This document shows positions 1 to 32,470 of a stretch of DNA of 64,000 nt, piece by piece; the stretch's first letter is position 1, and each line of letters starts with the position of its first letter. A program made the translations under genes and the position numbers. The DNA comes from Aphrocallistes beatrix (lineage: Eukaryota; Porifera; Hexactinellida; Sceptrulophora; Aphrocallistidae), in assembly GCA_963281255.1 (NCBI GenBank), contig OY725498.1, positions 682,001-746,000 on the forward strand, given 5' to 3'. Under the pieces are notes generated by a model. The model was not told the DNA's origin, searched no databases, and saw only the letters and a program-made list of their open reading frames with translations.

Positions 1-800
1 AAGAAACTGCACCTGAATGTGACATACAATATTGTTTTAGTTCAAATTTCAAAATGATCGAAAGAAATGACGACTTAAATAGCTTTACAAATGGAATGAC
101 TAATGCACTCAACAAACTAAGTTGCATTAGTAACGGAATATCAGCAATCGCAATACTAATTAACTTGGAAGAGATGTTCAATGAAGAGATCTACAATCAC
201 ATCATCAACCTCCCGAACACATACAACCTTGGAGACAAGTTGAAGCATAATTTCTGGGAATACGCGTGCATTGTGTTTAAGGCTCGAATGGACAGTAAGG
301 ACTTCGTGAGAAGACAGATCGAGGCTAATCCCAAACTGAAGAGTCTAGACAGAATGGTACAGTCGAGATACTGCTGGATCACCAGCAGGAGTATCCCAGA
401 GGAATGCTATGAGAGGTTAGGGAACTTGGTCAAGGAGGTTACCTCGTACAATAAACTGAAGATATACACTGATAGCAATGTAGTCACAGAGATGAGAGAT
501 ACAATGCAAGAGAGTTTTATGAACAGATATTCAAATGATAGAGAGACTCCTCCAGAAATAGAAAGGGAAGAGCTACTACCAGAAGGGAGATTGTGCCAGC
601 CCCTTTCACCTCGAAATGCTCTACTCTCCATCAATAACAGATTCTGGATTACAGAGCACACAGGTATATCTACACTAATCGGGTACTTTATTTGGAAAAA
701 CATAAATGCTGACATCGCTAAACAGTTCAAGATACGATACCCAGAAGCTGTTAGAATATCTGCCGATGCCTTTATAGATTTTTGGTTAGAATTTAAGTAA
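1..800 (+). CDS. AIG1-like two-domain GTPase, C-terminal part (cut by window start)
   Basis: The frame is open from base 3 to the stop at 798-800, so the gene begins outside the window. The visible 265 residues match the second half of the intact GTPases at 2837, 14798 and 23469: the degenerate second AIG1 domain (LNKLS, then ILINLEEMFNEEIY, then FWEYACIVFK), followed by the family's C-terminal tail ending in IGYFIWKNIN and a short acidic/basic stretch. The block around ECDIQYCF aligns with KYDVEYHFNPDL of the relatives, which shows that the Met codon at 54 is internal and not the true start. No P-loop is visible because that domain lies upstream. The tail keeps the K-x-YxDxxVxxEMRD pattern of its relatives. 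The gene is the first member of the cluster and has the same orientation as most others. Whether the missing half is intact cannot be told here. Confidence 0.8.
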   Translation, partial: ETAPECDIQYCFSSNFKMIERNDDLNSFTNGMTNALNKLSCISNGISAIAILINLEEMFNEEIYNHIINLPNTYNLGDKLKHNFWEYACIVFKARMDSKDFVRRQIEANPKLKSLDRMVQSRYCWITSRSIPEECYERLGNLVKEVTSYNKLKIYTDSNVVTEMRDTMQESFMNRYSNDRETPPEIEREELLPEGRLCQPLSPRNALLSINNRFWITEHTGISTLIGYFIWKNINADIAKQFKIRYPEAVRISADAFIDFWLEFK

Positions 801-1023
801 TGAATTACCTCTATTTACTCTCCCTTCTTGTGTCTATTCTGTCTCATTGTTTGATGTTTCATTGGCATCAACGTAAATTATAGAGTTTGTATTAACATGT
901 TCCTTAGCAAAGTGACAATTATACCACATTAAATAGACTGTAGTTAGTTACAAATTTAATTTCGCTTTATTTCGGGAGGATATAACCTCCAACAAGGAGT
1001 TGTTAACGTCATTTTAAGAATTA

Positions 1024-1517
1024 CAAGCGCGCTTCGCGCTTGCTTGCGCTGCGCAGCTGGCGGACACTTCGTGTCCGCCGGAGGCTCCCTTCGGTCGCCT
1101 GGAGTCACATTGGTTAATTATAAGGGAGATAACATCTCTAAATATGTCTGTTCTACTGTGCTAATCGATATCACTCGAAAAATCACCAAATTTGTCAATT
1201 TAAAAATTTTTGATGCGTAATGATGACGTCATAACAAAGTGATGAGTCATCATTTTTTGATGAAAGTCGCATCATATGTGAGGTATGTTAGTATACAGAT
1301 TCTATTAAAATTTCAGCCTTCTATCTCCTATAATGGCTTAGTTATGCCCGAATAACTGTGTTGCTTAACTTTTAAAAATGTGACAATGACGTCATAATTC
1401 CATGATGAGTCGACATTTTGCTCTGAACTCAGAACTTACTGGAGCCATAGCCAAAAGACTCTCACATGCCAAAAATCAGCCTTCTGCGCCCGGCAGTTTC
1501 TTCAATCAATTCGTTAC

Positions 1518-1552
<35 letters not shown>

Positions 1553-1808: not shown

Positions 1809-2009
1809 AACTCCATCAGCAGTTTGAATAATAGTGAAATTGAGATAAGAGAAGTCCTTAGAGTATTGAGCAGGATCGGTAGCACTAAATTGAGAGTAAT
1901 CATGATCAACATCAAAGAAGAGCAAACTCAAGAAATCTACAATAAATTATTGTATATCTTTAAAAACGAAGATTTCTGGAAGTGCGCACCCATTGCTTTT
2001 AAGGAACAG
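1809..2009 (+). pseudogene. Relic of an AIG1-like second domain
   Basis: A short open stretch reads NNSEIEIREVLRVLSRIG, then VIMINIKEEQTQEIYNKLL, then EDFWKCAPIAFKEQF. This follows the order of the degenerate second domain of the neighbouring GTPases (ITQALNKLSGIG, VMILLVSLEEMFSQEIYDLI, KDFWDYACILFK). There is no upstream G domain, an in-frame stop precedes it, and it runs into a GC-rich repeat at about 2040-2080. I read it as a decayed fragment rather than a gene. Confidence 0.55.
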
Positions 2010-2836
2010 TTTGAGAGAGAAGATCGTATCAGTAGTCATAGGCGCCGAACCCGGGGGGCTGGGGGGCTCGAGCCCCCCTAGATTCGAAGATGGCCCATGG
2101 ACGCAATACAAATTTTAGGGCTGAGCCTCCAATCAATGGCTCCAAGAGTCCAGAACTGAAAAGAACATCACTTAGCTCATTGTTATTAACCTCTTTGCCA
2201 ATTTTTCTCCCAAGACGAGTTCTTAACAATCATGAAAATTACGGAGATTTTCTCTGAAAATCGATACTGCGTCTTTTCTAATGCGATTTTAGTTCCATTC
2301 ATGCGGACATGATTGATAAGAAATTGAAGAAATAAAAATTGATCACCGCTCGGAATAGGGATCATTATAAACACATGTATGTAGTTCTAACATGAAGTGG
2401 CCGTTGTATACTGTTTTAGAGCCCGAAAATGGGTGGTCGCAGGCGCGTTGGGCAGATGATCGTTATACACACAGGTTCATTATTCTAGGCATCGGACGAG
2501 ATTGTTCTTAGATAATCTATCGAATAATGTTTTATTATACGTATAATATTCGTACGCAGATTTCAACTCTTTTTGATCAACTATTTTTCGATTTTCCTCT
2601 CAAATATTGAATATTCATAATTATTCCCCACATCACTGAATTAATCAACTTAGACTTTGGCTTGGATTAATGTATTAGGCTCTCATACGAGAAACAGTCG
2701 AACAATACCAGTTGTAGAAGTCATGGAAACAAGAGTAGAAATATTTATAAGCTAACAGTGTTCCATACTAGTATTTATTTCAAGTGTTGTTTACATTGTA
2801 TCCTTATATAAGGTTTTATTTCTTTAGATTCTCAAG
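2010..2836. other. Gene-free interval before the first intact GTPase
   Basis: It contains a GC-rich, partly self-complementary patch at about 2040-2085 (runs of G and C around GGGGGGCTCGAGCCCCCC), probably MITE debris. The rest is AT-rich. Just before the next gene a CCTTATATAAGG palindrome (about 2801-2812) could act as a TATA box, and a TTTCTTTAG acceptor-like site lies 10 bases before the ATG. I see no other gene. Confidence 0.4.
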
Positions 2837-4417
2837 ATGGGTAATTCCCCCCCACAAGCAACACACATCCGAGATTTCGATAGGAGCTTCATTTTAATCG
2901 GAAAAAGTAACAGCGGGAAAAGCACTTTAGGAAACTTGATTCTTGGAGATCCACAGAAGTTCGAAGTACACCTAATTCAAGAAGCTAAAGGACTTACGAA
3001 AAAAGTTAAATCAGGTGAAACTGTGGTAGATCCGAGAAATGTTTACGGCGAAAACTGTCCGATAAGAGAACAGTTGAAAATTCAAGTTCTAGATCAACCT
3101 GGTTGTAATGATGGCGATTTCACTCAAGAGAATTATTGTGATTTTCTGAAGCAATGCATCAGTGAATCGAAAGGAGAAATGTCCGCCACTTTTCTCATCC
3201 TTGTCAACCTCAAGTCGGGTTATCTATCGCCAGAGGAGTTCCTCACTCTCATGAACATTGCAGAGATATTGTCCAACAGCAGCTACAGTTTCTTTCCAAA
3301 TACGACAGTGGTATTTACACATGCAGATAAAATCTCTGAGAATTTGAATGAAGAAGTTCTTGAAGAGCATCTAGAAAATAAGGTCCAAATGGAAGAGTTC
3401 GCTTACATCAAGGACCTGATTAATTTAGTGGAGAAGAGATACATTTTCATAAACGGAGTCAATAATACAGCAGAAAACAGACATCGTATTATAAGGAAAC
3501 TTTTCCTAAAGAGCAGAACCAATTTGAATGTGTACGTAAACGGAAATACCGGATTCAAAGGAAACGAATTGAAAGTGTTATTCAGAGAAGATCCTGAAGC
3601 GAATACTTTCAAGAAAAATCTAATAAACTATGATGTAGAATATCATTTCAACCCAGATCTCAGTTTGTTTAGAAGATATAGAACTTTTGACCTACATCGA
3701 GAAATCAGTCAAGCCTTGAACAAACTAAGCGGAATCAGCAAAGGCGTATCAGTTATGATTCTGTTAATTAGCCTTGAAGAAATGTTCAATAAAGAAATTT
3801 ATAACCTCATTCATGATCTAGCAAACACTTACAGACTTGGTGAAGATTTCAAAAAAGATTACTGGAATTACTCTTGCATTGTTTTCAAGACACCAGTTGA
3901 CCAGGAAACATTTGTTTCAGATAATATTGAGGGTAACAAGGTTTTAAAAGAATTAGTTGAGAAAGTTAGACATAGATATAGTTGGGTAACCGAGATGACA
4001 ACACAAGAAGAATGTTCCCAACGAATTTTGGGTTTGATAAGAAGAGTGAAATACGATACTGAGGGGAAGACTTACATCGATAGCGTAGTGCTATCTGAAA
4101 TGAGGAGCAAGATAAAAACTTCTATCGAGCAGAAAAAAAATACTAGAAAAAAACAAATAACTATAGGGATAACTAATGAAGATCTAAAACGCGTGGGAGT
4201 ACCAATGTATAGATTAGAGGCAACGAGACAAGTTTTGATTGCCAACAACGACTTTTTCTGGGATGAATCCATATCATCTCAAATTGGGTTTTACCTCTTA
4301 AAAAACATAAACCCAGTCATCGCTCAACAATTCCAAGAAAGGTATCAGGATCCAAATCAAAGAATATCTACCCAAGACTATTCTGCATTCTGTCTTGAAT
4401 CTTTCAAAAAGATGTGA
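2837..4417 (+). CDS. AIG1/GIMAP-like two-domain GTPase
   Basis: This single open reading frame encodes 526 residues and is the clearest reference member of the cluster. The first domain carries the P-loop GKSNSGKS at residues 22-29, GLTKKV (about 52-57) in the switch I area, a DQPG Walker B/G3 motif at 86-89, VVFTHAD (158-164) where G4 is expected, and FINGVN near 204-209 as G5. This order and spacing are those of AIG1-type GTPases (IAN/GIMAP in animals and plants). A second, degenerate AIG1 domain follows at about 230-425: NGNTGF (235-240) sits where the P-loop would be and no GKS remains, but the RYSWV strand near G5 is kept. A tail of about 100 residues ends in IGFYLLKNIN and a lysine-rich end. 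The protein starts MGN, so N-myristoylation is possible. It is followed 1.2 kb later by a stand-alone degenerate domain. The cellular role is not known from sequence; GIMAP relatives act at membranes in immune cells. Confidence 0.9.
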   Translation: MGNSPPQATHIRDFDRSFILIGKSNSGKSTLGNLILGDPQKFEVHLIQEAKGLTKKVKSGETVVDPRNVYGENCPIREQLKIQVLDQPGCNDGDFTQENYCDFLKQCISESKGEMSATFLILVNLKSGYLSPEEFLTLMNIAEILSNSSYSFFPNTTVVFTHADKISENLNEEVLEEHLENKVQMEEFAYIKDLINLVEKRYIFINGVNNTAENRHRIIRKLFLKSRTNLNVYVNGNTGFKGNELKVLFREDPEANTFKKNLINYDVEYHFNPDLSLFRRYRTFDLHREISQALNKLSGISKGVSVMILLISLEEMFNKEIYNLIHDLANTYRLGEDFKKDYWNYSCIVFKTPVDQETFVSDNIEGNKVLKELVEKVRHRYSWVTEMTTQEECSQRILGLIRRVKYDTEGKTYIDSVVLSEMRSKIKTSIEQKKNTRKKQITIGITNEDLKRVGVPMYRLEATRQVLIANNDFFWDESISSQIGFYLLKNINPVIAQQFQERYQDPNQRISTQDYSAFCLESFKKM

Positions 4418-5591: not shown

Positions 5592-6158
5592 ATGGCTACA
5601 CAATTTCCCAAACAAGAATTCCAAATATTTATTCATGGAAACAATGATTTTAAATGTTCTGAACTCCTTGGAAAACTATGCATTTTTCAACCTCAAAATT
5701 CTTTTGATGTTAGAATGAAATTTTTCGTATTCTCTGACTTAAACTTATTCCAGCCATATACACCTATTGAACCTCCTAGTAACCATGAAGTAAATGTTAA
5801 AGATGCATCAGCGATATTGGTACTCATAAGTCAAACAGCAATATTCAGTGACGGAATGAGGAGATTAATCGTCAATTTACCTTACAACCAATTTTACGGA
5901 TTGAATCAAACAAATGAAAAGGTGTGGTGGAAACGTGTAATAGTGGTATTTTCATTGGGAGAGAATGAAGGTGGAAATAAATTGATCAAACAGTCGATAT
6001 CAGGAAATAGAAGTCTAAAAGAAATAGTTGATAAAGCTGGAGGGAGATATATTTGGATGTCAGATAATACTAGATGTGAAGACTTCGCTGCAGATCTGCA
6101 TGCGAAAGTGACACACCTATCTAAGGTATTATTTGTCGGATACTCAGATCAGAGGTAA
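5592..6158 (+). CDS. Stand-alone degenerate AIG1-like domain (pseudo-GTPase)
   Basis: This 188-residue protein is homologous to the second domain of the neighbouring GTPases and not to their catalytic first domain. The P-loop position reads IHGNNDF (about residues 14-20). It is followed by SDLNLF (about 50-55), SAILVLISQTAIFSDGM (about 75-91), WWKRVIVVFSLGENEGG (about 115-131) and IVDKAGGRYIWMS (about 147-159), the last being the AIG1 region near G5. No GKS, DxxG or TKxD is present, so nucleotide binding is unlikely. Unlike its paralogues it has no membrane segment or CaaX box. The stop follows closely after the domain, and the final codons overlap a possible splice donor (AGAG before GTAACT), so an anchor exon could be missing from this model. 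The start is supported by the HGNN spacing seen in the paralogues. Confidence 0.75.
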   Translation: MATQFPKQEFQIFIHGNNDFKCSELLGKLCIFQPQNSFDVRMKFFVFSDLNLFQPYTPIEPPSNHEVNVKDASAILVLISQTAIFSDGMRRLIVNLPYNQFYGLNQTNEKVWWKRVIVVFSLGENEGGNKLIKQSISGNRSLKEIVDKAGGRYIWMSDNTRCEDFAADLHAKVTHLSKVLFVGYSDQR

Positions 6159-6345: not shown

Positions 6346-6805
6346 ATATATACACCTGTATTATAAACTGAAAGGTACAAACAGGGGCTAAAAGTCAAAA
6401 TCTAGGTAGTTTGTTTCTCAATCAGCTTTTTTAGATTTTGATTATTCATTTTAAAATAATTTCCATTATTGGCCCCGCCATAATTCTCATAACCTTATTA
6501 CATATTTTTAAATACGAAAATTAAATTCTTAAATTTCTTTACTAGTTGAGTTAGATTTCAAATCAATACCCATTAGAAAATGCCTTAATAAAAATAAGGA
6601 AGTTTCATATCTTTTTAAAGAGATTATCCCCATCTTTTTAGGCTAATGAATGCCTCTATATACAAATAGTTTTTGAATAATTTTGATTGTATTATACATA
6701 TAAAAGTCTCAAATATACGTACGATACCACCGCTTAGGAGTAGATAAATCAAAATGTTATAATGGACCGATTTTTAATGACAAAATTCAAATATTATTTA
6801 GTGTA
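6346..6805. other. AT-rich gene-free interval
   Basis: I see no gene or clear repeat apart from a short TA run at its start. The last bases carry an ATTATTTAG acceptor-like site 4 bases before the ATG at 6806. Confidence 0.3.
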
Positions 6806-8110
6806 ATGGTGATTCCTGGATTTCAAGATAAAATTAAAAAAGTTAAACTCGTTGGAGAGATCAAATTTGAACACACTTTCATACTGTTTGGAGGCATTAA
6901 TTCTGGCAAAAGTACTCTTGGAAATCTATTATTGGGACCTCGAAAATCTCCGCCTTTCGAGACACATCTTTTCAAGGAACATTTCGGGTTGACAAAGGAC
7001 TTGAAAAAATTCGACACTAAAATAAATGAAAAAGTATTATATGGCGACGACAATCACTCAAACAAAGATGTTAGAATTCAAATAGTGGATCAGCCTGGAT
7101 TTGACCGCTTGGATCCTAAGGTACATGACAGGAAATATGGTGAAATTTTAGCAGAATGCATGTATGAAACTACAAAAACAAAACATACAACTTTCCTTCT
7201 TTTAATCGATGTTCATTTTGAGGATATTCAAACAGAATATTTTGAAAAATTGATTGAAGTTACACGAGTTTTATCAGACTGGATAGCATCAAACCCTGGT
7301 ATAAACTCATTGTCATCCCAAAACGAGAATGCTTTCTTTTCAAATGCTATTTTCATCTTTACACGTGCAGATGAGCTACATTGGAAGATGGACAAAAATA
7401 TTTTGGAATAAAAACTTCAAAGAAAATTAAAGGAAGAATCATCTTTGAACCTTAGAATGCTCTTACAATATGCGAATCAAAGACATATCTTTATAAATGG
7501 AGCGAATAATGCTGAACAAAACAGAAATTGGATCTTAAGAAAAGTCGTTAAAACTATGACCGAAGGGAAAGAATCCACAAATCGTTCTATTCCTATTAAT
7601 GATATCAATAATGAGAAAATACATTTAGACAAAAATCTCAGCGATGCCTTGAACAAGCTGAGCAAAATTACTCAGGAAATGCCACTATTTGTTTTACTGA
7701 TTTGTCCTGAATATACCAGAAACGAAAAGCTGTATAATTTCATTTTATGCCCTGTCAAGAATTCAGATTTCCAGAAAACTGTGAAGGTGATTTTGGATAA
7801 GGATTTCTGGGATCACACCTGCATCGTTTTGAAGGGCAAGAGAGAATCGTACCCTGAAGACAAACAGTTAGAAGAATTGATTGGAAAAGTGAAGTTTGGA
7901 CATTTTTATGTTGAAGAAAATGCATCTTCAGATGAAATTTACGAAGAGTTTTCCAAATTGGTTTGTCAAACTGATCTAAAACCAAACGAAAAGCAAGAGT
8001 CAATCTTCGAGCATCACGAAAAAGAATTACGTGAAAATATGGATGAAGATATCTCTTGTACAATAGATGTAGACATAAATTCTAAAGAACTGACAAATGC
8101 AGATAATTAG
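6806..8110 (+). pseudogene. Divergent AIG1-like GTPase with one in-frame stop
   Basis: Two open stretches, 6806-7411 and 7412-8110, lie in the same frame and are separated only by a TAA at 7409-7411. Across the stop the family alignment continues (NILE, stop, KLQRKLKEES against ERLEQELSK of the 23469 gene), so this is one gene with a nonsense codon rather than two genes. The first domain has the P-loop GGINSGKS (about residues 30-37), DQPG in the motif VDQPGFD, FIFTRAD in place of G4, and FINGANN as G5. The second domain is shortened: the NGNNGF entry strand is absent, but the LNKLSK, LLICPEY and KDFWDHTCIVLK blocks remain. The C-terminal tail is unrelated to the other members and very charged. 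It could be a fresh pseudogene, a null allele, a sequencing error or a stop with readthrough. No intron with good sites removes the stop. Confidence 0.65.
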
Positions 8111-9112
8111 ATAAATAACGAATGCGTTTTTACTGTGTCTACTAATTAGTTTGGTAATAATGTGAACAATTCTTCTCATTTGAATTCCCTTACTATACTT
8201 CTAATTCTAGTATATAATAGATAGCTTTGATGAAAGAGTGATTGTTTGAACTCGGTTAGTATTTTGCATGTATAGTAAGTATTACAAGTAATTATAGAAT
8301 TTTGAGATTAATTTACCAGTATTTATACGTACTATAATGTGTGCAGCATTTGTTGGGAACGTTGAGTTCTGAAATGTGAGCTCTATCACAACTTTGATCT
8401 ATATCACATCCTTAGTACACACGGTATTGTAAGGATGTGTATTATATTTCACTGATATTATATTTCACTGATAATAGAAACTGGAAGTAGTTCATTAGGC
8501 TCCTCCGTCACTACTGTATTAATTTAGTCCTACTAATGAGGATAATTATATGTACAATGGGGGCGTACATCATTATACATCTTGCCAGTTTTTAGTAGAA
8601 ATTTTTTAGCCAATTATAAATCAAATTATCAACTTTGTGTAAAAAATAATTGGACTCTGATAGTGAAAATCTGCTCATTCGCTGTCCAATGAGGCCCTTT
8701 TAGAGCTGAAATAAATTTTTTACTAACTTGGTCTTAAAGAAGAGTCATATGAAAACATAAATTAAATGCACAAACGTGAATTCCTACATGTACATCATAA
8801 AATTAAAGAATCTCATTCATAACTTCGAGCTAGGGAATTATGATCTTGCGATTATTTATCGCTCGATCACGATCGAGATACTTTAGTATTTTTCAACCAT
8901 TGATTGAGGATCGTCGAATTTTTAAAAATATCTGATAGACGATCAATATCTTTTTTACCAACATTATTTCGATCATTAATAAGAAGCTATCGATCTTTTT
9001 CCTTCTCATCGTCATTTTCTTATTTGCTATTGAGTAATTTATTAAAGTATTACTAGTTATTTTTAGTTTTTACAGATTGATTAAGTTAGAACTATTGACA
9101 GTACATGCGAAT
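8111..9112. other. Gene-free interval
   Basis: AT-rich sequence without a recognisable gene or full repeat. A small self-complementary patch around TCGCTCGATCACGATCGAGA (about 8860-8880) is the only structure I noticed. A TTTTTACAG acceptor-like site lies about 37 bases before the ATG at 9113. Confidence 0.3.
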
Positions 9113-10106
9113 ATGGGAGGTTATTTCAGCAGTGAAACAGAACCTTCTTCAACTCCTGAAGCACTTCCTAAAGCAACACGAATCAGGGATTTTGATCGAA
9201 CTTTTATTCTATTCGGAAAGGTAAATAGTGGAAAAATTTATTAATGGGAATTCGCGATAGAGCTCACTTCGAAACACATCCATTCCTCCAGCCATCAGGC
9301 CTCACTAAAGTGGTTAAGTCGGGCGAAGCGGAGTTAGACGCGAGTATCGTGTACGGAGAAGAGTGCCAGTCAAACGATCTTTTGAAAATTCAAATTCTAG
9401 ATCAGCCAGGCTCCAACGACTGTGACTTCGATTCTGAAAATTATGGTGAATTTTTAATGAAACAAGCACGCTTCGCTTGCTTGCGCTGCGTGTCCGCAGA
9501 GTCACCCTGCGGGCACCTGGAGTTACTCAATCTAACATATTTTGGGATTTTTTCCTTTATGTAAATATTTTAAAAAAGGTCAACGAAAAATTTTTCATAT
9601 GGATCCGAGAATATAATATTCGGATTCTACAGCACTAAAAACCCCATGTCAACCGTTGGAAGCTAGTCTCTAGCCCGTTTTTGTAATTTGTTTACTTTAT
9701 GTATCTATTTCAAATAAAAGTAAACAAATAATTTATCATATAGATCTGAAAATATGATATTCGAAATCTACACCCCTGAAAACCCCATGTTAACCATTGA
9801 AAGCAAGTTTCTAGCCTATTTTTGTAATTTGTTTACTTTATATATCTATTGTAAACAAAAGTAAACAATTAATTTATCATATCGATCTGAAAATATGATA
9901 TTCGAAATCTACACCCCTAAAAACCCCATGTCAACCGTTGAAAGCTAGTCTCTAGCATTATTTTCAAAATTCATCAAATGGTGTGAAAATATGTATATAA
10001 AGGTGTGAAAATATGCAGATAATCTTTTTTATAGCCATACACTAAATATATTTCAGATATCAAACATAAGTTGTGGCTTTGAAGTATTAATAACAATGAC
10101 GATCTA

Positions 10107-11371
10107 CAGTATGTCCAATAATTATTGCAACACATCATTATTTCTATTTCAACCACTGCTATAGTTCTATTTGATAAGTAGTAGTTATTGTACTAATATA
10201 GAAAGTTAATTGGTATCTATTTGAAAATAAATCTGGGTAAACACACAATGGGATTATATATTTGCTAATGAGGGATGACGTCATAATATACGATGCCGTC
10301 ATCATTTTAGTACCTTTCATCATAAATTAGAAAATTCTCTTACCTTTTAGCTGAATAATTTAGTATTTAGCGTTGATATGCCTCAAGAGGTGATGAGAGA
10401 AAAGATCAAAACTCTATTGATTGGCGATAAACATACACCTACTGAAATCTCACGCATTTTAGATGTTAACCGAGGGACAGTTTACAGGGTCAAAAAAAGG
10501 CTCCAAACAAATATGACCCTTAAACACAAAAGAGGCTGTGGTAGACCAAATTTACTCAGCGATTCAATAAAATATACAGCTGCTCAGTTCATCAAATCGG
10601 ATCCAGAGACTAGTGTACGTAAACTTACAACCAGGATAGCTAAAACAAAGAAACTGACTGTCAGTAAAAGTATAGTCCATCTTACTCTTCAGAAACTGAA
10701 ATACTCTAAGCCATTTCCTGTCCAGATTCCATTGCTGTCTGAAAAAAACCGTCTCTTCAGAATTGAATGGGCACAGAAAAACAAATTTAAACTGTGGTGT
10801 AGAGCTGTGTTTGCAGATGAAGCCTCTTTCTGGCTTAATCGTGGGAAGGTTCGAATGTGGACAAAATCTGAAAAAAAAACGATCACAAAAAACTACCAAA
10901 CACTCACCGAAATTACACATATGGGCTGCATTTTCGTCTTTCGGTACCTTCCCATTGTGCATTTTTCGTCAGAATTTGGATGCACAATTCTTTGTTAAGA
11001 TCCTTGAATGGCATCTTCTTACACAGGCTGAAACTTTCCACGGAAATAGATGGTTTCTCGTCCAGGATAATGATCCAAAGCACCGGTCAAAATTAGCCCA
11101 ACAATGGATCTCAGAAAAAATGCCAAATAATGTCTTTCAATGGCCCAGTCAATCACCTTTCTCTCATACCCGAATTTTTGGCACCTTATTGGAAGTCTAT
11201 GAGGCGTAGATGTCAGATGGTCGTAGAAAACGATGGAAATAAGATCAAATATTAATCTCTAGTGTATTCTCAACAAGTAGACAAAAAACTAGATCATATA
11301 CTTTCATATTTATTGTTTCTGGGTTACACTAAGAAATCTCCCTAGTGTTGCAATAAATATTGGACATATTG
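10107..11371 (+). mobile_element. Tc1/mariner element nested in the Helitron
   Basis: The 1265-bp element is flanked by TA at 10105-10106 and 11372-11373. The termini are inverted repeats: CAGTATGTCCAATAATTATT on the left and the complement of CAATATGTCCAATATTTATT on the right. Length, TA target and terminal repeats are typical of Tc1-like elements. The transposase gene inside is broken, so it is no longer autonomous. Confidence 0.9.
10378..11209 (+). pseudogene. Tc1-like transposase pseudogene
   Basis: The N-terminus has a helix-turn-helix (PTEISRILDVNRGTVYRVKK) and a second basic region, as in Tc1 transposases. The first catalytic aspartate is seen in VFADEASFW and the second in VQDNDPKHRSK. 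The frame shifts near 10900, where the product passes from the frame of 10378 to that of 10763. The third catalytic region reads WPSQSPFSHTR, so the expected D of the WPSQSPDLNP motif is lost. The final segment ends early. The protein is therefore inactive for at least two reasons. Confidence 0.85.
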
Positions 11372-12605
11372 TATTTATTGTAGTGTCGTACTTGTACAAT
11401 GATTTCTATTGTAATAGTGTAGTCATTTATTTTGTATAGAAAAGGTGCGAAAAATTGTTTTCCATTTTTTTTGCAGAGATGTTAAAATTTCGCTTAGATC
11501 TTAGAACTTAATCGTAGGCATATCATTTGACACCTACATGCAAATTTTCACACCTCTACGACTTCCCAATTCTTCAATCAATTCGGACAAACACACAAAC
11601 AAAAAACAAACAAATCCTAGCATTTTAATATATAAGATGCATCGCCGAGGCAAAATCGGAAATGTCCGCTACATTTCTCATTCTTATCGACCTAACATCT
11701 AATTATTTTTCCATGGAAGAAATTCTCACTTTCCTAAACATCGCCCAAATTATGTCCAATAGTTGTTACAGTTTCTTTCCTAATGCGACAATTGTATTCA
11801 CACACGAAGACCTATTGGTTGGGAATTCAGGGAAAAGTTCAGAACAAATATGATGGGAGAAGTTAGAACAAGAAGCCTACGCTTCTATACAGGAGCTGAT
11901 GAATCTTGTAGATCAAAGATACATATTCATAAACGGAGTAAATCAAAGTGAGGTAAACCGAAGTAACATTCTGAAGAAACTCTTTCAGCTGACCAGACCC
12001 AATTTGGGTGTGTACGTTAACGGGAATAATGGATTCGAAGGGAGAGAATTGAAGAGGCTATTAGGAGCCGAAGCTGATGATGAGAGCTTCACAATTAGTT
12101 CACTTAAGTACGATGTAGCATACCATTTCAACCCAGATCTGAATCTGTTTAGAAAATACGACACAATTAATCTTGAAACTAGCATTCGGAATATCCTTAA
12201 CAAATTGAGTGGAATCAGTAAAGGAGTATCGGTCATGGTTCTCTTGATTTTTAAACTTTCATACATCAATTTAAGAATGTAATAAGTATATTTATCATAT
12301 TTGTGTCATTGTTGTATTAAACAGAAGTAGTGCTATCTTAAAATGAAATTACATGAAAATTATATCCTTGTCATGATTCCATTCAAAACTGTAGTAGAGA
12401 AGCAGAGTTTTCATTGCTAAATGATGGGACCTCTGAGGACTACGTCTATGGAGCGTCTTCGAGGTTTGAATTTAGGGAAGTTCAGGTGACCCCAGTCCCC
12501 CAGGATTCGACACTTATGCTATGGCAATGGAATATATTCAATGTCTGCTAAATATTTGAAAAAATCTTAAATGATCTACAACGTATTTGTAGCCGAATTT
12601 ATATA

Positions 12606-19016: not shown

Positions 19017-19877
19017 ATGACGGAGATACAAGATTCTATCAAAACGAACCGTATCATAATACATGGAAACAACGGATTCAAATCTTCACAACTTCTAGAA
19101 CAGATAAACATTACTCCAGAAAGATACTCTCTAGAAACAGAAAATGGTCGATTTGAATTCTTCCCATTCACAGACCTAAACTCATTTAATAAGTATTTAC
19201 CCATTCAACCATGCACTGAAATGGCCAGGTTAATCGAACAATCAGAACAAGGCGTAGACATATCAGCTATTTTGGTACTCATCAGTCAAACAGAGATATT
19301 CAGCCAAGGAATGCATAATTTGATTTCAAAGATACCACACAAGGACGACAAATTCGGTTATAGATTCGGAAATGAGAAGGAGTGGTGGAGTCACGTGATA
19401 ATAGTATTCTCATTTGGAGAGAATGAAGGTGGAGATGAAAGAGTTAGAAAATCAATTGTAGGAAACAGTGGAATTCGGGAAATAGTTGCAAAAGCTGGAG
19501 ACAGGTACATGAGTGTCTCAAACAATACCACAACCGAAGAATTTATAGGGAATTTGCATAAAATATTAACTCAACAATTGAAACAAAAGAAAATAATCTT
19601 AGGAATCGATTTATCACAGAAAATACAAGATAATTACGCGGATAAGATACCAACAGAGCCATCTCTACGAGAAAAACTAATCCTACTGCTGACCTGTTTT
19701 GGATTCATTCTGTTATTAATTGGAGTTTACTACTACTCTCTAATCTCTACGGTAATACTACTTGTGGTGTGGCTATTTATAGTATGCACCCTTCCATGGA
19801 TCCTGGGGACGGCTACCATCACGACTATCCTACGGAAGCATAGCGTTATGATGCGTGGCTGGCTGAATACACCGTAG
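19017..19877 (+). CDS. Stand-alone degenerate AIG1-like domain with C-terminal membrane segments
   Basis: I start the gene at the ATG at 19017 (MTEIQDSIKTNRIIIHGNNGF), because the open frame upstream of it has no ATG and contains the TTTCAAATTAG acceptor-like site. The domain carries IHGNNGF (about residues 14-20), FFPFTDLNSF, SAILVLISQTEIFSQGM, EWWSHVIIVFSFGENEGG and IREIVAKAGDRYMSVS, with no nucleotide-binding motifs. The last 70 residues are hydrophobic in two blocks (LILLLTCFGFILLLIGVYYY and VILLVVWLFIVCTLPWIL), predicted as a two-pass or hairpin membrane anchor, and end with basic residues. The first ~190 residues are nearly identical to those of the next gene, but the tails do not align. 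Confidence 0.85.
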   Translation: MTEIQDSIKTNRIIIHGNNGFKSSQLLEQINITPERYSLETENGRFEFFPFTDLNSFNKYLPIQPCTEMARLIEQSEQGVDISAILVLISQTEIFSQGMHNLISKIPHKDDKFGYRFGNEKEWWSHVIIVFSFGENEGGDERVRKSIVGNSGIREIVAKAGDRYMSVSNNTTTEEFIGNLHKILTQQLKQKKIILGIDLSQKIQDNYADKIPTEPSLREKLILLLTCFGFILLLIGVYYYSLISTVILLVVWLFIVCTLPWILGTATITTILRKHSVMMRGWLNTP

Positions 19878-20188: not shown

Positions 20189-20950
20189 ATGATACAGATA
20201 CAAGATTCTAACAAAACGTATCGTATCATAATACATGGAAACAACGGATTCAAATCTTCACAACTTCTAGAACAGATAAACATTACTCCAGAAAGCAACT
20301 CTTTAGAAACAGAAAATGGCCGCTTTGAATTCTTCCCATTCACAGACCTAAACTTATTCAATAAGTATTTACCCATTCAACCATGCACTGAGATGACAAA
20401 GTTAATCGAACAATCAGAACAAGGCGTAGACATATCAGCTATTTTGGTACTCATCAGTCAAACAGAGATATTCAGCCAAGGAATGCATAATTTGATATCA
20501 AAGTTACCTTACAAGGACGACGAATTCGGTTATAGATTCGGAAATGAGAAGGAGTGGTGGAGTCACGTGATAATAGTATTCTCATTTGGAGAGAATGAAG
20601 GTGGAGATGAAAGAGTTAGAGAATCGATCGCAGGAAACAGTGGAATTCGAGAAATAGTTGCAAAAGCTGGAGACAGGTACATGAGTGTCTCAAACAGTAC
20701 CACAACTGAAGAATTTACAGAAAATTTGCATAAAATAATAACTGAAAGATTAAAAAGCCACCCACCCGAAGAAAGAGTCGAATCCTCCAGCATAAGAACA
20801 TTCCTAATATTATTCATTTGGTTATCCATTGGAATTCTCGCCATTCCAATATTAATAGTCCTGTTTTCATCATTACTATGCATTCTTCCATTGATGCTGT
20901 GCATCTTTGTGCTGCCATGGTGTAGTTTGCGGAGGGGCAAGCCAGCATAG
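20189..20950 (+). CDS. Stand-alone degenerate AIG1-like domain with C-terminal membrane segment
   Basis: The 253-residue product is a recent tandem copy of the 19017 gene over its domain (IHGNNGF, FFPFTDLNLF, SAILVLISQTEIFSQGM, EWWSHVIIVFSFGENEGG, GDRYMSVSNSTTTEEF). From about residue 195 it departs completely. A short polar linker (HPPEERVESS) leads to two adjoining hydrophobic stretches (FLILFIWLSIGILAIPILIV and SSLLCILPLMLCIFVLPWC) and a basic end. Both copies therefore keep a membrane anchor of similar size but unrelated sequence. A hexanucleotide repeat starts at the stop codon. Confidence 0.85.
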   Translation: MIQIQDSNKTYRIIIHGNNGFKSSQLLEQINITPESNSLETENGRFEFFPFTDLNLFNKYLPIQPCTEMTKLIEQSEQGVDISAILVLISQTEIFSQGMHNLISKLPYKDDEFGYRFGNEKEWWSHVIIVFSFGENEGGDERVRESIAGNSGIREIVAKAGDRYMSVSNSTTTEEFTENLHKIITERLKSHPPEERVESSSIRTFLILFIWLSIGILAIPILIVLFSSLLCILPLMLCIFVLPWCSLRRGKPA

Positions 20951-23468: not shown

Positions 23469-25070
23469 ATGGCGTATTATATAAAAGAAATCATACGCTA
23501 TTTTACGGGTGGAGCAACTACAAACAGGGATTCTGATCGAAGTTTCATTCTATTGGGAAAAACCAACAGCGGTAAAAGTACTTTAGCGAACTTGCTACTT
23601 TGGAGAGAAGAGTTTGCCGTACACAAAATGCCTGAAGCATTTGGCCTTACTAAACATGTGAAGTCCTGTGATGCCAAGATAGACCCGAGTATAGTGTACG
23701 GTAAAGAAGTTGAGTTGAGTGTTCCATTAAAGATTCAAGTATTTGACCAACCTGGATCTAATGATAGGGATTTCACGGAGGAAGAGTATTGCAGCTTTTT
23801 GACAAAATGCATCGCTGAATCCAAAGGAGAAATGTCTGCAAATTTTCTCATCCTTATCAACTTAAGCTCTGACTATTTGTCTTCACAGGAAATTCTTACA
23901 ATCATGAACATTGCTGAAATTCTATCCAGAAGCAGTTACAGTTTTTTTCCGAATGCAACAATCGTATTCACACATTCCGATAAAGTTGATCCCAATCTAA
24001 ACGAAGAGAGGCTAGAGCAAGAGCTGAGTAAAATAGTCAAGGAGGTGGAATTCACATATATCGAGGAGTTGTTAAATTTGGTTGGCAGGAGACATATATT
24101 TGTTAACGGAGTGAATAAAACACCAGAAAACCGAAATGATATTCTGAGAAAGCTTTTCCAATTAAATCGAGTCATTTTGAATGTCTATGTTAACGGTAAC
24201 AACGGGTTCAAAGGAAAAGAGTTGAAAACGTTACTGGGAATAGATCCAGATGCTAAAAAATACAAAACTAGTTTTATCAAATACGATGTTGAGTATCAAT
24301 TCAACCCAGATCTAAACCTGTTCAGGAGATATGAAACACTGGATATCGGACACGAAATAACTCAAGCTTTGAATAAACTAAGCGGGATCGGAAAAGGAGT
24401 ATCAGTCATGATTCTATTGGTCAGTCTTGAAGAGATGTTCAGTCAAGAAATCTACGATCTTATTAGTAATCTGCCAGAAACATACAGACTAGGGGAAGAT
24501 TTCAAAAAAGATTTCTGGGACTATGCCTGCATTCTCTTCAAGAGTCCTGACGATAATGTTGATAATTTGAAAAGAAACATTAGTCACAACTCTCTGTTGG
24601 AACGATTAGTTGAAACCGTAAAATCAAGGTACGCTTTAGTTAGCAAATCCACTTCAGCGGAAGAATGCTCTGACAAAATCCTAGATTTGGTGAGGAGAGT
24701 GAAATTGGACACGGAAGGGAAAACCTACATTGACAGTACTGTGTTAAGAGAGATGCGAGACATGATACAGGAGTCAATGGAACAGAGAAAATCCACGTAC
24801 AAGAGTCAAGTAACAGAAGGGATAACGAACCAACGATTAATCAAAGATGGGATTCCTATTTACAAAACGATGACTGATTCTAAAGTTGTGCTAAAAACAA
24901 ACGATTTCTTCTGGAGTAGTGAGAACATTTCCCCTCGGATTGGATATTTCATTTTGAAAAACATGAATGCAGACAAAGCAATGGAATTCAAAGATAAATA
25001 CAAAAATCAGAGACTAATAAAAACTGAAGAATTCGCAGAGTTTTGTTTGAAAGTGATGGAGAAAATGTGA
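23469..25070 (+). CDS. AIG1/GIMAP-like two-domain GTPase
   Basis: The intact 533-residue frame has P-loop GKTNSGKS (about residues 30-37), GLTKHV, DQPG in VFDQPGSND, VFTHSD at the G4 position and FVNGVN as G5. The second domain carries VNGNNGF, YQFNPDLNLFRRYE, VSVMILLVSLEEMFSQEIYD, KDFWDYACILFKS and a tail with TEGKTYIDSTVLREM and IGYFILKNMN. It differs from its two closest relatives at the N-terminus: the MGN start and PPATKIRDF are replaced by MAYYIKEIIRYFTGG, so the myristoylation signal is absent, either through a sequence change or because an upstream exon supplies the true start. A TTCTTTATTTAG acceptor-like site lies about 17 bases upstream of the ATG. The genes that follow (26778-30216) are on the other strand. 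Confidence 0.9.
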   Translation: MAYYIKEIIRYFTGGATTNRDSDRSFILLGKTNSGKSTLANLLLWREEFAVHKMPEAFGLTKHVKSCDAKIDPSIVYGKEVELSVPLKIQVFDQPGSNDRDFTEEEYCSFLTKCIAESKGEMSANFLILINLSSDYLSSQEILTIMNIAEILSRSSYSFFPNATIVFTHSDKVDPNLNEERLEQELSKIVKEVEFTYIEELLNLVGRRHIFVNGVNKTPENRNDILRKLFQLNRVILNVYVNGNNGFKGKELKTLLGIDPDAKKYKTSFIKYDVEYQFNPDLNLFRRYETLDIGHEITQALNKLSGIGKGVSVMILLVSLEEMFSQEIYDLISNLPETYRLGEDFKKDFWDYACILFKSPDDNVDNLKRNISHNSLLERLVETVKSRYALVSKSTSAEECSDKILDLVRRVKLDTEGKTYIDSTVLREMRDMIQESMEQRKSTYKSQVTEGITNQRLIKDGIPIYKTMTDSKVVLKTNDFFWSSENISPRIGYFILKNMNADKAMEFKDKYKNQRLIKTEEFAEFCLKVMEKM

Positions 25071-26777: not shown

Positions 26778-27584
26778 TCATGTAGTCATAAAAGCAATAC
26801 CAATTATAGATAATGAAGTTATTAGAGTAACAGAGACAGCTGAAATGGCAATAGACTGTAAAATAGACGATAATAAAGATGTAAGAGGATTCATGGGTAG
26901 GAACTCTATCAATTTATTTTGTTTGTTAATCGGGAGAGCAGGTTTTCTTTCAATGAAAGAAAGTGCCGCTGACGTTGATACCAACAATCCAATCAGAAGT
27001 TTAAAAAGAAATGTGTCCCTAGTATGCCGTGGGTTTGGTGGCGGTGATGGTGATGGTAAAGGAATATCTGTCTTTTCTAAAATCTCAGTGAATCGAAGTA
27101 AAAACTGTTGCCTCGTGAATTGTGGCACATATGTATATCTCCCTCCAACTCTCTCTACCACTTCTCTGATTCCTGAGTTGTTATCGATTGTCTGTTGAAT
27201 AACTTGATCGTGATCCTGATGACCTCCCACATAGAACACAACCACTGCTTTGTGCCAGAAGAAATTCTCTCTACTAGGATCGAGTCCGTAGCGTCCAGGA
27301 ATGGAATAGATCAGAGACAGCATGCTGCTACTGAAAATAACTTCCAATCCGATCAGAATTACAAATCGAGATTCTTCTAGTTTTGTTAGAGAATTATCGA
27401 AATCAAGATTGTCGTATTGATGGAACAAGTTCAGATCTTCAGTGTAGAGGAAATGAAATATATATTTGGAATACTGTGTAGGGCCATGTCCTAACAGTTC
27501 TTGCATCTTTTTACTTGAGAAGTCATTGTTTCCATGAAACGCAATTGTGAAAGATTTTAGATAGTTATCCTGTTGTTGAGCCAT
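26778..27584 (-). CDS. Stand-alone degenerate AIG1-like domain with C-terminal membrane segments
   Basis: The 268-residue minus-strand product starts at the ATG complementary to 27582-27584, one base after a GTATTTAG acceptor-like site. The domain has AFHGNNDF (about residues 14-21), HFLYTEDLNLFHQYDNLDF, RFVILIGLEVIFSSSML, FFWHKAVVVFYVGGHQ and IREVVERVGGRYTYVP, all without G1, G3 or G4 residues. After residue ~180 the chain is proline-rich and then hydrophobic in two places (FKLLIGLLVSTSAALSF and LQSIAISAVSVTLITSLSII), likely a membrane anchor. The domain part is nearly identical to the copies at 28750 and 29410 while the tails differ. Confidence 0.85.
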   Translation of the reverse strand: MAQQQDNYLKSFTIAFHGNNDFSSKKMQELLGHGPTQYSKYIFHFLYTEDLNLFHQYDNLDFDNSLTKLEESRFVILIGLEVIFSSSMLSLIYSIPGRYGLDPSRENFFWHKAVVVFYVGGHQDHDQVIQQTIDNNSGIREVVERVGGRYTYVPQFTRQQFLLRFTEILEKTDIPLPSPSPPPNPRHTRDTFLFKLLIGLLVSTSAALSFIERKPALPINKQNKLIEFLPMNPLTSLLSSILQSIAISAVSVTLITSLSIIGIAFMTT

Positions 27585-27839
27585 TCTAAATACAAACTCA
27601 AATAAATAGTCATTTGGAGTAAATAGATTATAGAAATGATATCGATAAAATTCGATACTATTACACGATATAATATATATTTGTATTGTTTATGTTTGCT
27701 TGTCTGTTCAGAATAAATTGGGAAAACCATACGCCATAGAAAGCTGTAAGTTGTGGAGTATGGATTTCAGTTTTGGGATTATTCTGGAAAATAACCTTAT
27801 TGATACACTTTATATACATAATTTTCATTTCCCGAAATT

Positions 27840-28749: not shown

Positions 28750-29327
28750 TCACAGCCTCAATGCATAAATAAAAATCTTCTTAATGGAATTAGTCACGAA
28801 AAGGAACAGAGTTTTCAAAAATTTTGCAGAAAAAACAATTGTATACCAGCTCCAAACAAAGATATCCGAGATATAGAAGAGAAATGGAAGCAGAAATAAT
28901 GGCAAATTAAGACGCGTATATACCAGGCCTCTTCTCGCATTGAACTTTATTTTTGTAATTTCGGTCTTATCACAATCTCTAATTCTAACAAGTACTTCTC
29001 CCAACTTCTCAAGAAAATCTTCCTTTCTCATGGATTGGGACACATGTGTGTATCTCCCTCCAACTCTCTCCACCACTTCTCTGATTCCTGAGTTGTTATT
29101 GATTGCCAGTTGAATAACTTGATCGTGATCCTGATGATCTCCCACATAGAACACAACCAATGCTCTGTGCCAGAAGAAATTCTCTTGATTGAGTCCGTAG
29201 CGTCCAGGAATGGAATAGATCAGAGACTGCATGCTGCTACTGAAAATAACTTCCAATCCGATCAGAATTACAAACCGAGATTCTTCTAGTTTTGTTAGAG
29301 AATTATCGAAATCAAGATCGTCGTATT
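28750..29327 (-). pseudogene. 5'-truncated pseudo-GTPase copy
   Basis: The open frame matches the 29410 gene from QYDDLDFDNSLTKLEESRF through VVERVGGRYTHVS and has its own hydrophobic tail (LFLLPFLFYISDIFVWSWY and the following stretch). The first ~55 residues, including the HGNNDF strand, are missing and no ATG opens the frame; a TAA lies just before the homology begins. At 29327 the homology stops abruptly and the sequence continues as the 3' flank of the next gene (CAACATATC, TTAATAAATC, CACAAAA, also found at 28690-28720). This is the junction of a tandem duplication that cut off the 5' end. Confidence 0.75.
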
Positions 29328-29409
29328 GAAATTATTCAACATATCTATTAATAAATCCCACAAAATATTTCGAAACAATAAAACAATAAATTGAAATTAA
29401 TACTGTTTC

Positions 29410-30216
29410 CTAAAATTCTGGAGAGTTGTATTTAGTTTTAAGATTTAGTATCAATTTCGCATCAAGAGATTCTAATAATAAAGAGAAAATGAAACATGTC
29501 TTCTTCAGACTGGCACATTTACTTCTTGCCATCTTCTTAATGGAAATAGTTATGAAAGAGAATTTTATTTTTGGCAAAATTCCAGGCAAAAAGGATTTAC
29601 AGAAAAAAAATATGAGCAAAAATATAATCATAAAGTGAGGCAGCAGGCTAAACTTTCTCGCATTGGAATTCTTTTCAATAATTTCCGTTTTGTTACAATC
29701 TCCCATTATAATAAGTATTTCGTCCAACTTGTCAAAAAAATCTTCCTCCGATTGTGGTACATGTGTGTATCTCCCTCCAACTCTCTCCACCACTTCTCTG
29801 ATTCCTGAGTTGTTATTGATTGCCAGTTGAATAACTTGATCGTGATCCTGATGATCTCCCACATAGAACACAACCACTGCTCTGTGCCAGAAGAAATTCT
29901 CTCTACTAGGATCGAGTCCGTAGCGTCCAGGAATGGAATAGATCAGAGACAGCATGCTGCTACTGAAAATAACTTCCAATCCGATCAGAATTACAAATCG
30001 AGATTCTTCTAGTTTTGTTAGAGAATTATCGAAATCAAGATTGTCGTATTGATGGAACAAGTTCAGATCTTTAGTGTAGAGGAAATGAAATCTGTTGGAA
30101 TACGGTGTAGGGACGTCTCTTAACAGTGTTTTCATCTTTTCACTTGAGAAGTCATTGTTTCCATGAAACGCAACTGTTAAAGATTGAGGTGGCACTTGAT
30201 CTGTCACTCTTTTCAT
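29410..30216 (-). CDS. Stand-alone degenerate AIG1-like domain with C-terminal hydrophobic tail
   Basis: The 268-residue product opens with an ATG (complement of 30214-30216) one base after a TTGTGTTAG acceptor-like site. Domain blocks are AFHGNNDF (about residues 16-23), HFLYTKDLNLFHQYDNLDF, RFVILIGLEVIFSSSML, FFWHRAVVVFYVGDHQ and IREVVERVGGRYTHVP. The tail has a strongly hydrophobic segment (FMIIFLLIFFFCKSFLPGIL) and then basic and mixed residues; only one clear membrane pass is seen. The gene diverges from the GTPase at 30833, and the two share a 617-bp intergenic region. Confidence 0.85.
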   Translation of the reverse strand: MKRVTDQVPPQSLTVAFHGNNDFSSEKMKTLLRDVPTPYSNRFHFLYTKDLNLFHQYDNLDFDNSLTKLEESRFVILIGLEVIFSSSMLSLIYSIPGRYGLDPSRENFFWHRAVVVFYVGDHQDHDQVIQLAINNNSGIREVVERVGGRYTHVPQSEEDFFDKLDEILIIMGDCNKTEIIEKNSNARKFSLLPHFMIIFLLIFFFCKSFLPGILPKIKFSFITISIKKMARSKCASLKKTCFIFSLLLESLDAKLILNLKTKYNSPEF

Positions 30217-30832
30217 TCTAACACAATTGTTCTCAATACTAAATATTTGGAGATTTCAAATTAATCGCAACATTAAATTCTCGCCATTTAAAAAGGATTG
30301 TAATTAATAACCTTGTTCTTACACCATAATACTGCCATGCTGTAGTATAGTCGAGCCCAGTTATTGCAGTTTCTGTGCTCAACACTATACTTGCTTAGCA
30401 TCAAAGCATGTTGTGGAGACGTCATGATGATAACTCAATGAGAAAAGTGGAGGCAAATATTTATTTAAAATTTAAATAATTGCGTTTATATACCCTAATT
30501 AATACCCAGGAAAAACTTATTATGCTTACGGTACTCATTTTCGGTTTAAGCTATTTTGGGCGGGGAAGCCGTATACATTTGGGGTCATTACTATAAATAG
30601 GAATGGTCCCCAAGTTGTCCCTGGGTTTAATTAATTATGCATTCAATTTAGCTCAGTACAACGCTTGATGAAAATAAAGGTTGATGGCTACAAAGGTAAT
30701 CTACTAGTTAAAGACTCCTACACCTACAACCTAGCACTAAGATCCTTGTACGAACAGTATTATCAGCAGTGTATAGTGTTACCAACTCAATATGAATAAA
30801 TAACACAGAACAATGTGCTCTTGCAATCCACT
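30217..30832. promoter_or_regulatory. Divergent intergenic region between a pseudo-GTPase and a GTPase gene
   Basis: The genes on both sides point away from this 616-bp region, so it should hold promoters for both. I see no clear TATA box or repeated operator. The arrangement would allow joint expression; this is inference. Confidence 0.4.
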
Positions 30833-32470
30833 ATGGGGAACAAGCAAGCTGTCCATCGGAGTTTCATTCTCATCGGGAGAATGGGAGACGGCAAGAGTAC
30901 GCTAGGAAACCTGATCGCTGGTACGGATGACCAACCACGACCGTTCGTACAGCATCAAACTGAAGAGGCAGTTGGAGAGACGTCTCGAGTCGAATCAAAA
31001 GAGACAGTATTACAGCCTGGAGACATTTACGGAGGCGAGGAGGTGAGAATAGAAGTATTCGACCAACCCGGGCTAAACGATCCGAACATCAAAATTGTGC
31101 ACCACAGCAGGAACTTAATGGAATGCATTCGCAGATCGAAACCTTTGTTCTCTGTAACATTCTTGATTGTCGTGAATCTCGCTGCGGTAACGATCGAGCC
31201 AGATCTTGTCAAATCGATCCTTTCCCTCGCGGAACACCTCGCACGCTCCTCGTACAGTTTCTTCAACAACGCAGTCATAGTATTCACGCACATTGACGAA
31301 GCGTTAGAAGAGGGAGTAGGAATCAATCATGAAAATTTAGACCAGAAACTAACCGAGAAATGCGGGACAGAAAGATGGAAATGGTTCCGATATATCTTGG
31401 ACTGGGTGGATGGTAGGTACATCTTTGTAAATGCTACCCAGCGGAATCAGGCTCAAAGATTACAAATAATCAAAGATTTATTTGAACACTCAAAACCTAT
31501 GTTACGCGTTCTGTTCCATGGAAATACACACTTCAGAGGCTGTGAGATGCAGAGGCATTTGGGAGTCGAGGAAGAGAATAACAGAGATCTCCTCAGGTAT
31601 CGAGTTGAATTCATTTTCAATGAAGACTTGGAACCCCATAGGGAAAGAGAAATCAATATTGAGGAAGAAATTAAAAAGGTTGGGACATTTTTAAAGGAAA
31701 TCGGACAAGGAATTTCAGTAATGGTCGTGCTTATCAGTCTAACAGCTGGGTTTACAGATGAGACAGGGGATCGAATCAGGGGTCTACCTGCTAGCTACGG
31801 GCTCGATCAAAACGAGTGGAAATGGTGGGACTATACAGTCGTCATTTTCAAAGTTAGAAGTCAGGAACAAAGTGAGGCTGACATCACAAGGAACTTGGGG
31901 AATATCGGAATTAATAAGATATTGAAAAGAGCAGGAGGTAGGTACACTTGGGTAGCTACAGAGCATTTAGAGGAAAGGGATCAACAGAGAAAGACAGCGT
32001 TCCAGGAAGCATGTGTCCAACGAGTTGTCACTCAATGCCTAGAAGTTAAGCAGTCTTCAGAAGGGAGAGCTTACATTGACAGGCTGGTGCTGATGGAAAT
32101 GGAAGGAATGATCGATGAAATGAAATACAAGCAAGCGTCTCCCATGAAAAAAATTGGCATGGAAATGGCGAAAGGAATCGGGCCAGTGGTCGCAGGGGGT
32201 TTGGGAGGAGCGGTTGCGATTGGTGCAGTCGGAGTTATCGGCGGACCGATCACAATGATTGTTGGGGGTGTGGTCGGGGGGCTAATGGGTGCCACTGGGG
32301 GAATCTCGGTGAGACTCGCGTACCATATTCTCAAGAAGTTCAAGCCTCATGTGGTAGCGGATTTCAAGAAGAAATTCCCAAACGAAGAGAATAGAATAGC
32401 CAAAGAAGACTTTTACGAGTTTTTTATTGGAAAAATGATGCGTAATGATAATCTTGATGATTTGCAATAA
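30833..32470 (+). CDS. Divergent AIG1-like two-domain GTPase with glycine-rich hydrophobic hairpin
   Basis: I choose the ATG at 30833 (MGNKQAVHRSFILIG) because upstream in-frame codons have no ATG and MGN matches the paralogues. The protein has 545 residues. P-loop GRMGDGKS is at 15-22, DQPG at 77-80 and FTHID at 151-155, with FVNAT as a G5-like strand. The second domain has LFHGNTHF in place of the P-loop, FNEDLEPH, ISVMVVLISLTAGF and GGRYTWV. Between it and the conserved C-terminus (LAYHILKKFKPHVVADFKKK) is an insertion absent from the other members: residues about 445-490 are made of Gly, Ala, Val and Ile with repeated GG and GxxxG spacing (GGLGGAVAIGAVGVIGG, then MIVGGVVGGLMGATGG). This resembles a membrane-inserting or oligomerising glycine zipper. 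Base composition is more GC-rich than its neighbours, which suggests an older, slower-evolving member. Confidence 0.9.
   Translation: MGNKQAVHRSFILIGRMGDGKSTLGNLIAGTDDQPRPFVQHQTEEAVGETSRVESKETVLQPGDIYGGEEVRIEVFDQPGLNDPNIKIVHHSRNLMECIRRSKPLFSVTFLIVVNLAAVTIEPDLVKSILSLAEHLARSSYSFFNNAVIVFTHIDEALEEGVGINHENLDQKLTEKCGTERWKWFRYILDWVDGRYIFVNATQRNQAQRLQIIKDLFEHSKPMLRVLFHGNTHFRGCEMQRHLGVEEENNRDLLRYRVEFIFNEDLEPHREREINIEEEIKKVGTFLKEIGQGISVMVVLISLTAGFTDETGDRIRGLPASYGLDQNEWKWWDYTVVIFKVRSQEQSEADITRNLGNIGINKILKRAGGRYTWVATEHLEERDQQRKTAFQEACVQRVVTQCLEVKQSSEGRAYIDRLVLMEMEGMIDEMKYKQASPMKKIGMEMAKGIGPVVAGGLGGAVAIGAVGVIGGPITMIVGGVVGGLMGATGGISVRLAYHILKKFKPHVVADFKKKFPNEENRIAKEDFYEFFIGKMMRNDNLDDLQ

Follow-up and report, generated by a model that had tools for sequence, protein, structure and literature searches.

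A tandem array of AIG1-type GTPase genes and motif-less look-alikes in the glass sponge Aphrocallistes beatrix

Composition and extent

The window analysed here is a 64,000-nt stretch of contig OY725498.1 (C12:682001–746000) in the 100.5-Mb, 28-contig genome assembly of the glass sponge Aphrocallistes beatrix. It contains the right end of an array in which AIG1-type GTPase genes are mixed with motif-less look-alikes, some of them predicted to be membrane-bound; on its sequence, the array is more elaborate than the GTPase families that it resembles. We annotated stop-to-stop open reading frames (ORFs) of at least 50 codons across C12:505–746 kb with profiles built from the window proteins and their relatives, which placed the array at C12:532–714.5 kb. 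The original prediction, made from the letters of the window, had described a cluster of about 15 loci of one family in some 32 kb. Fifteen rows of family pieces, relics included, bear out the count, and the cluster is present, but the whole array spans ~182 kb.

Throughout, G denotes the GTPase domain and P a pseudo-GTPase domain of the same predicted fold, and the genes fall into three types: A (G-P-tail), D (stand-alone P) and BC (P, predicted intron, G). Our hand-made list holds 52 loci, relics included, comprising 25 A, 13 BC, 13 D and one lone G-domain gene; the BC count includes 653981, which lacks a splice donor, and the decayed 687577 (array loci outside the window numbering are named by C12 position), and the D count includes the truncated 710753. 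Relics are common: 19 of the 25 A loci are intact, that is, a single ORF with all three parts, and six are broken. P-only ORFs number 26 array-wide, and five of those in the window are intact, stand-alone genes. The whole genome returned at least 91 AIG1 matches, many on contigs other than C12, and we looked in detail at three off-array places on C1.

GTPase genes with a second, motif-less domain

The A genes encode proteins of ~530 aa in one ORF, with an AIG1 GTPase domain, a P domain and a tail in that order. The four intact two-domain ORFs named in the original prediction are confirmed, each passing the curated Pfam AIG1 cut-off of 27 bits: 2837..4414 (526 aa, 68.0 bits), 14798..16378 (527 aa, 56.5 bits), 23469..25067 (533 aa, 60.6 bits, both domains GIMAP-like in the predicted structure) and the divergent 30833..32467 (545 aa, 49.3 bits), all on the + strand. 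The A copy on C1 scores 57.5 bits. Another intact A gene enters the window with its C-terminal half (1..797, +), its 523-codon frame starting to the left at C12:681229. A relic on the + strand (9038..12279) survives as four pieces (9038–9241, 9229–9561, 11629–11850 and 11854–12279) around Tc1/mariner-like transposase ORFs (10351–11209, +), the first of which matches Pfam HTH_Tnp_Tc3_2.

In an alignment of 25 A sequences (16 of the 19 intact array proteins and nine database relatives, two of them near-copies of the sponge's own genes), GxxxxGKS (G1), DQPG (G3) and T[HQ]xD (G4) are kept in all 25, and GxxxxGKS, DxxG and TxxD are also intact in the remaining three array proteins. None of the rows checked has G1, G3 or G4 in the second (P) domain. 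Six of the 19 intact proteins, including 2837..4414, 14798..16378 and 30833..32467 (each starting MGN), begin with MG, which we take to be a possible N-myristoylation start. The P domain of 30833..32467 clusters with those of the database proteins P0019 and P0020, and its tail has a glycine-rich hydrophobic stretch at about residues 450–490; the hydropathy scan marks none in the other 18 intact A proteins.

Among ten window proteins scanned, Pfam Septin matched 30833..32467 only, below the cut-off (13.5 versus 26.2 bits); septin chains gave weak matches to the A profile (E 0.0005–0.0095), and the Pfam matches of the ten window proteins at E ≤ 1 included no immunity-related GTPase (IRG) family, with filters that drop most weak matches.

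Stand-alone pseudo-GTPase genes

On the + strand, the window carries stand-alone P genes at 17346..18029 (C-terminal CIFF, a possible prenylation box), 19017..19874 (D type, hydrophobic C-terminus) and 20189..20947 (D type, C-terminal hydrophobic helix). On the − strand lie 26778..27587, whose D lineage stands separate from the remaining D genes in the tree, and two more members of that lineage, 29410..30216 and the 5′-truncated relic 28750..29331. Together with 5592..6155 (+), these are the seven ORFs that had been described as carrying only the degenerate domain. A search of those seven sequences matched all of them to a profile of the A second domain (E 1e-20 to 1e-28), but 5592 looks like a decayed exon and 28750 is truncated, so the description holds in part.

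None of the six window P-only proteins scanned (of seven) passed the Pfam AIG1 cut-off (best 19.2 bits; the stand-alone P copy on C1, 24.1 bits), and solo P domains gave no match to solved structures by sequence at E ≤ 10. The 21 P-only sequences that we aligned (of 26) have G1, G3 and G4 in no case, share 15 invariant columns and show a conserved loop pattern of their own at the former G1 site. The one solo domain modelled, 20189..20947, returned a confident predicted structure with the GIMAP fold, in keeping with the AIG1 origin first proposed, and its structural matches make an unrelated fold for the solo domains unlikely.

A hydropathy scan found a hydrophobic C-terminal stretch in 11 of 12 intact D ORFs, the remaining one being that which ends in CIFF, and in none of the 11 donor-bearing P-only ORFs described below. 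In a tree of P domains, 12 BC first exons and 11 of the 13 D genes form one group (support 100/99), the A-internal P domains form a separate group, and 26778 and 29410 branch apart.

Predicted joining of P to G by splicing

Splicing of BC genes was predicted from splice signals in the sequence. Thirteen P-only ORFs lie directly 5′ of a class-C G-domain ORF; 11 of them end with an in-frame TAA within G|GTAAG, and in the same 11 the following exon starts after AG in matching phase. These signals mark 11 of the 26 P-only ORFs as the predicted first exon of a spliced gene. The exceptions among the 13 are 653981, without a donor, and window ORF 5592, an apparent decayed first exon that ends in GTAACT (GTAAGT in its sisters), has no in-phase AG ahead of the next exon and is followed by a G frame carrying a stop. 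The 19 A ORFs and the 15 remaining P-only ORFs all lack the donor, and the BC copy on C1 has the same donor and acceptor. We do not claim the in-frame TAA as a designed switch, because a phase-2 intron starting GTAAG after a codon's second base yields TAA automatically.

Beyond the G domain, a P-like part and tail follow in those copies that can be read further. For two BC genes a second intron could be placed, and their spliced frames stay open to an A-like tail (655 and 729 aa), and in 532358, 586071 and 628623 the G frame reaches an A-like tail without one; for several others (e.g. 560776, 612828, 654915 and 659924), a continuation beyond G was searched for and not found. The class-C G domains keep GxxxxGKS in 12 of 14 cases (not 560776 or 586071) and have lost the glycine of DxxG in 12 of 14 (not 586071 or 688704).

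Two further BC-like pieces lie in the window, both on the + strand. A third-exon relic carrying a P-like part (1809..2078) gave a weak match to the P-domain profile (E 7e-4) and resembles by eye the third exon at C12:679749, and a G domain with adjoining P-like part (6704..8110) is interrupted by an in-frame stop after 7408. BC exons two and three at C12:678833 and 679749 open with similar words (RYQE.../SYQD...), hinting at duplication of an exon boundary. At C12:555682–559524, a BC second exon holds a long array of short acidic repeats (PNDQHEEVPK-like) that is absent from its sister 532358.

Gene order and copies outside the array

We compared the order of the 52 listed loci with shuffled orders. 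An A gene followed on the same strand by any P-first gene occurs 12 times, against a shuffled mean of 10.8 (p 0.35); taken literally, the earlier claim that GTPase genes mostly have a solo pseudo-GTPase gene next to them is not above chance. A then BC (10 versus 5.4 expected, p 0.004) and D then D (7 versus 2.6 expected, p 0.002) are more frequent, with p values that are too small because block duplication makes the loci non-independent. In eight chosen units (one with a D gene and seven BC-type, of which one is decayed), distances between A genes run parallel to those between their downstream P-first genes (r 0.75, 0/5000 shuffles as high), which block duplication would produce and which is not evidence of interaction. 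A plain, dedicated two-component array, as first proposed, was rejected because first exons are predicted for 11 of the 26 P-only ORFs and the GTPase–solo order is not above chance; the array has three gene types.

Elsewhere in this genome, an A+D pair lies at C1:11075135–11078461, with an A relic ~3 kb upstream, and a BC gene with a 5′-shortened first exon lies at C1:11566–11568 kb. Pairing in relatives, which the original prediction expected, was looked at through one protein, P0018 of another assembly, and there an A-type GTPase is indeed joined to a further P: P0018 is a single predicted ORF with the order G-P-tail-P-transmembrane segment (TM). It has no near match in this genome, and is probably from another species, given only 24–42 % identity to our loci; it may instead be a gene missing from this genome, gene content being variable. 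P0018 aligned with A and D rows was dropped as a structure target because the conserved columns show that the aligner placed D on the inner P. No confirmed relative was found among 66 pattern matches in viral contigs or among 208 in prokaryotes (84,980 species, one genome per species).

Selection and gene content

For pairs chosen as close, ratios of non-synonymous to synonymous substitution (dN/dS, NG86) were 0.15–0.31 in six A pairs, 0.39–0.74 in six D pairs and 0.32–0.58 in four pairs of BC first exons. Within the D genes, the P part gave 0.17–0.48 in five of the six pairs, the tails ranged from 0.34 to 1.10 (one saturated), and the tail exceeded its own P part in five of six.

Assemblies or haplotypes seem not to share the same complement of A genes. 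From an 871,041-base contig of another assembly, on which all are assumed to lie, we compared 13 A proteins with the intact A proteins of this array: six have a counterpart at 98.9–100 % identity and seven match at 54–94 %, broken copies having been compared for three of the 13.

Interpretation and alternatives

From the gene types, lost motifs, fold, splice signals, hydrophobic ends and fused ORF, which are read from the sequence or from models, we infer splicing, GTPase/pseudo-GTPase complexes in cis and in trans at membranes, and an immune role. The reading that we prefer, and to which we give an even chance of being right, is a tandemly duplicated, modular AIG1/GIMAP-type system in which P is a nucleotide-free partner of G and membrane-bound D proteins regulate A, likely in cell-autonomous defence. 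Judged by the usual motifs, P would not bind GTP and could act as a fixed dimer partner of G. A would hold P in cis beside G, and D, anchored in the membrane, may recruit or hold A there in trans and gate its GTP cycle, much as GIMAP7 stimulates the membrane member GIMAP2 in heterotypic dimers (PMC8201404, PMC4201521). BC would bind GTP but hydrolyse it poorly. The system would probably act in defence at membranes inside the cell, its array diversifying as genes are duplicated and lost. A bolder form of this proposal, unlikely as it stands, would give glass sponges a three-part combinatorial defence system. Its membrane-bound docking and sensing subunit would be a GIMAP-fold domain that is free of nucleotide and has a conserved loop of its own ([HN]GNxxF, DLN), swapped among proteins as a free tail-anchored chain, an N-terminal spliced exon or a C-terminal fusion, with haplotypes differing in gene content.

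Several results weigh against the preferred reading. The best Foldseek match of the A model (23469..25067) is not a GIMAP but the tandem-GTPase protein YphC/EngA (E 4.7e-9). Two P-only ORFs, 653981 and 687577, have neither donor nor anchor and so break the donor-or-anchor rule; the succession of A and P-first genes is at chance level. One spliced BC protein, used as query, found no transcript across the P-G junction at E ≤ 0.001, in a search that also missed the A proteins and is hence insensitive. The P part of the D pair 26778/29410 has a dN/dS of 0.91 and the D tails reach 0.92–1.10 in three of six pairs, both of which would fit relaxed selection. For P0018, a predicted ORF of another assembly, the assignment to another species is drawn from identity values, and the tree program flagged the long branch of its third P as possibly misplaced.

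The same ratios would suit an ordinary lineage-specific AIG1 tandem expansion in which the surplus P domains regulate nothing and are by-products in decay, a possibility that we consider somewhat doubtful. The frequent relics and partly random gene order point the same way, and there is precedent in snails, with AIG1 tandem expansions, dual-AIG1 proteins and TM forms (PMC7053062), and in the 50-gene tandem AIG1 block of Aphrocallistes vastus (PMC10282587). Decay does not, however, sit well with 15 invariant columns and frames that stay open, with the low P-part ratios in five of six D pairs, with the confident fold of the one solo modelled, or with the recurrence of A+D on C1 and the fused ORF of the other assembly. 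Alternatively, P might be a recognition or adaptor part whose altered loop binds a ligand other than a nucleotide (a microbial protein or lipid), and the GTPase would then provide the output. The conserved pattern at the former G1 site, the joining of P on either side of G depending on the gene and the higher ratios of D tails than of P parts would all agree with this, but P parts stay below 1 in all six D pairs, without clear diversifying selection, and we hold the idea to be quite improbable. Hydrophobic C-termini, and the presence of Toc34 and Toc33 among the structural matches, would suit a membrane-trafficking family resembling the Toc34/Toc159 receptors. Yet GIMAPs rank above Toc34 by Z in both models (for the solo, GIMAP4 just above it), and A-gene content seems to vary from one assembly to the other, as we would expect of defence rather than housekeeping genes; we consider a trafficking role very improbable.

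Relation to known systems

The array resembles the GIMAP family in its predicted fold, its tandem clustering, the C-terminal TM of some members and the existence of a multi-domain member, GIMAP8 with three G domains; heterotypic dimers are known for GIMAPs (PMC8201404, PMC4201521). It differs in its second domain without G1, G3 and G4 in the rows checked, in stand-alone motif-less copies predicted to be membrane-anchored and in the predicted spliced P-G form.

The GKS and GMS members of the IRG family are catalytic and regulatory GTPases that act at membranes. The array shares this division into catalytic and putative regulatory members, and a mouse IRGB10 chain ranks 48th among structural matches of the A model, but a GMS-type P-loop is missing from P, along with all three G motifs checked. 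Der/EngA (YphC), the first match of that model, likewise has two GTPase-fold domains in one chain.

Lancelet and snail proteins carry two or three AIG1 domains; in lancelets, the C-terminal AIG1 domain forms its own cluster, genes are present or absent between individuals, and, unlike here, CARD and HINT partners occur, while the available text of the two papers does not mention a degenerate or stand-alone domain (PMC12373286, PMC7053062). In A. vastus, 75 AIG1 genes are reported, 50 in tandem and 38 of these single-exon, and Oopsacas minuta has one gene at the syntenic place; the accessible part of that paper describes the block's proteins just as AIG1-containing and gives no pseudo-GTPase, stand-alone form or domain order (PMC10282587). 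The block may be the same array or its counterpart. PMC10282587 was the sole match of a literature search for AIG1 and Hexactinellida, the main text of the O. minuta paper contains none of the terms AIG1, GIMAP and GTPase, and we found no paper describing this architecture among the matches listed.

Vertebrate immune GTPases form networks of active and regulatory members. Here, in one array of an apparently early-branching animal, a GTPase fold appears to have been duplicated, stripped of its nucleotide motifs, often fitted with a predicted membrane anchor and combined with the active enzyme in various architectures. This offers a compact test case for a pseudo-enzyme becoming a regulator and would add a layer to the AIG1 expansion already reported in a glass sponge.

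Other features

Beyond the array, the window holds three tandem genes of one kind (41140–47605, −) with a coiled-coil-looking start and NHL repeats; 41140–42354, the copy scanned, has NHL repeats and no RING match, and the other two are split over frames. A GT10 fucosyltransferase (51776–53329, +) ends in a run of EKKVEEIAP-like repeats. On the mitochondrial contig, COX1 shows the genetic code of glass sponges, with an internal TGA, read as Trp, and AGR codons at positions where serine is expected.
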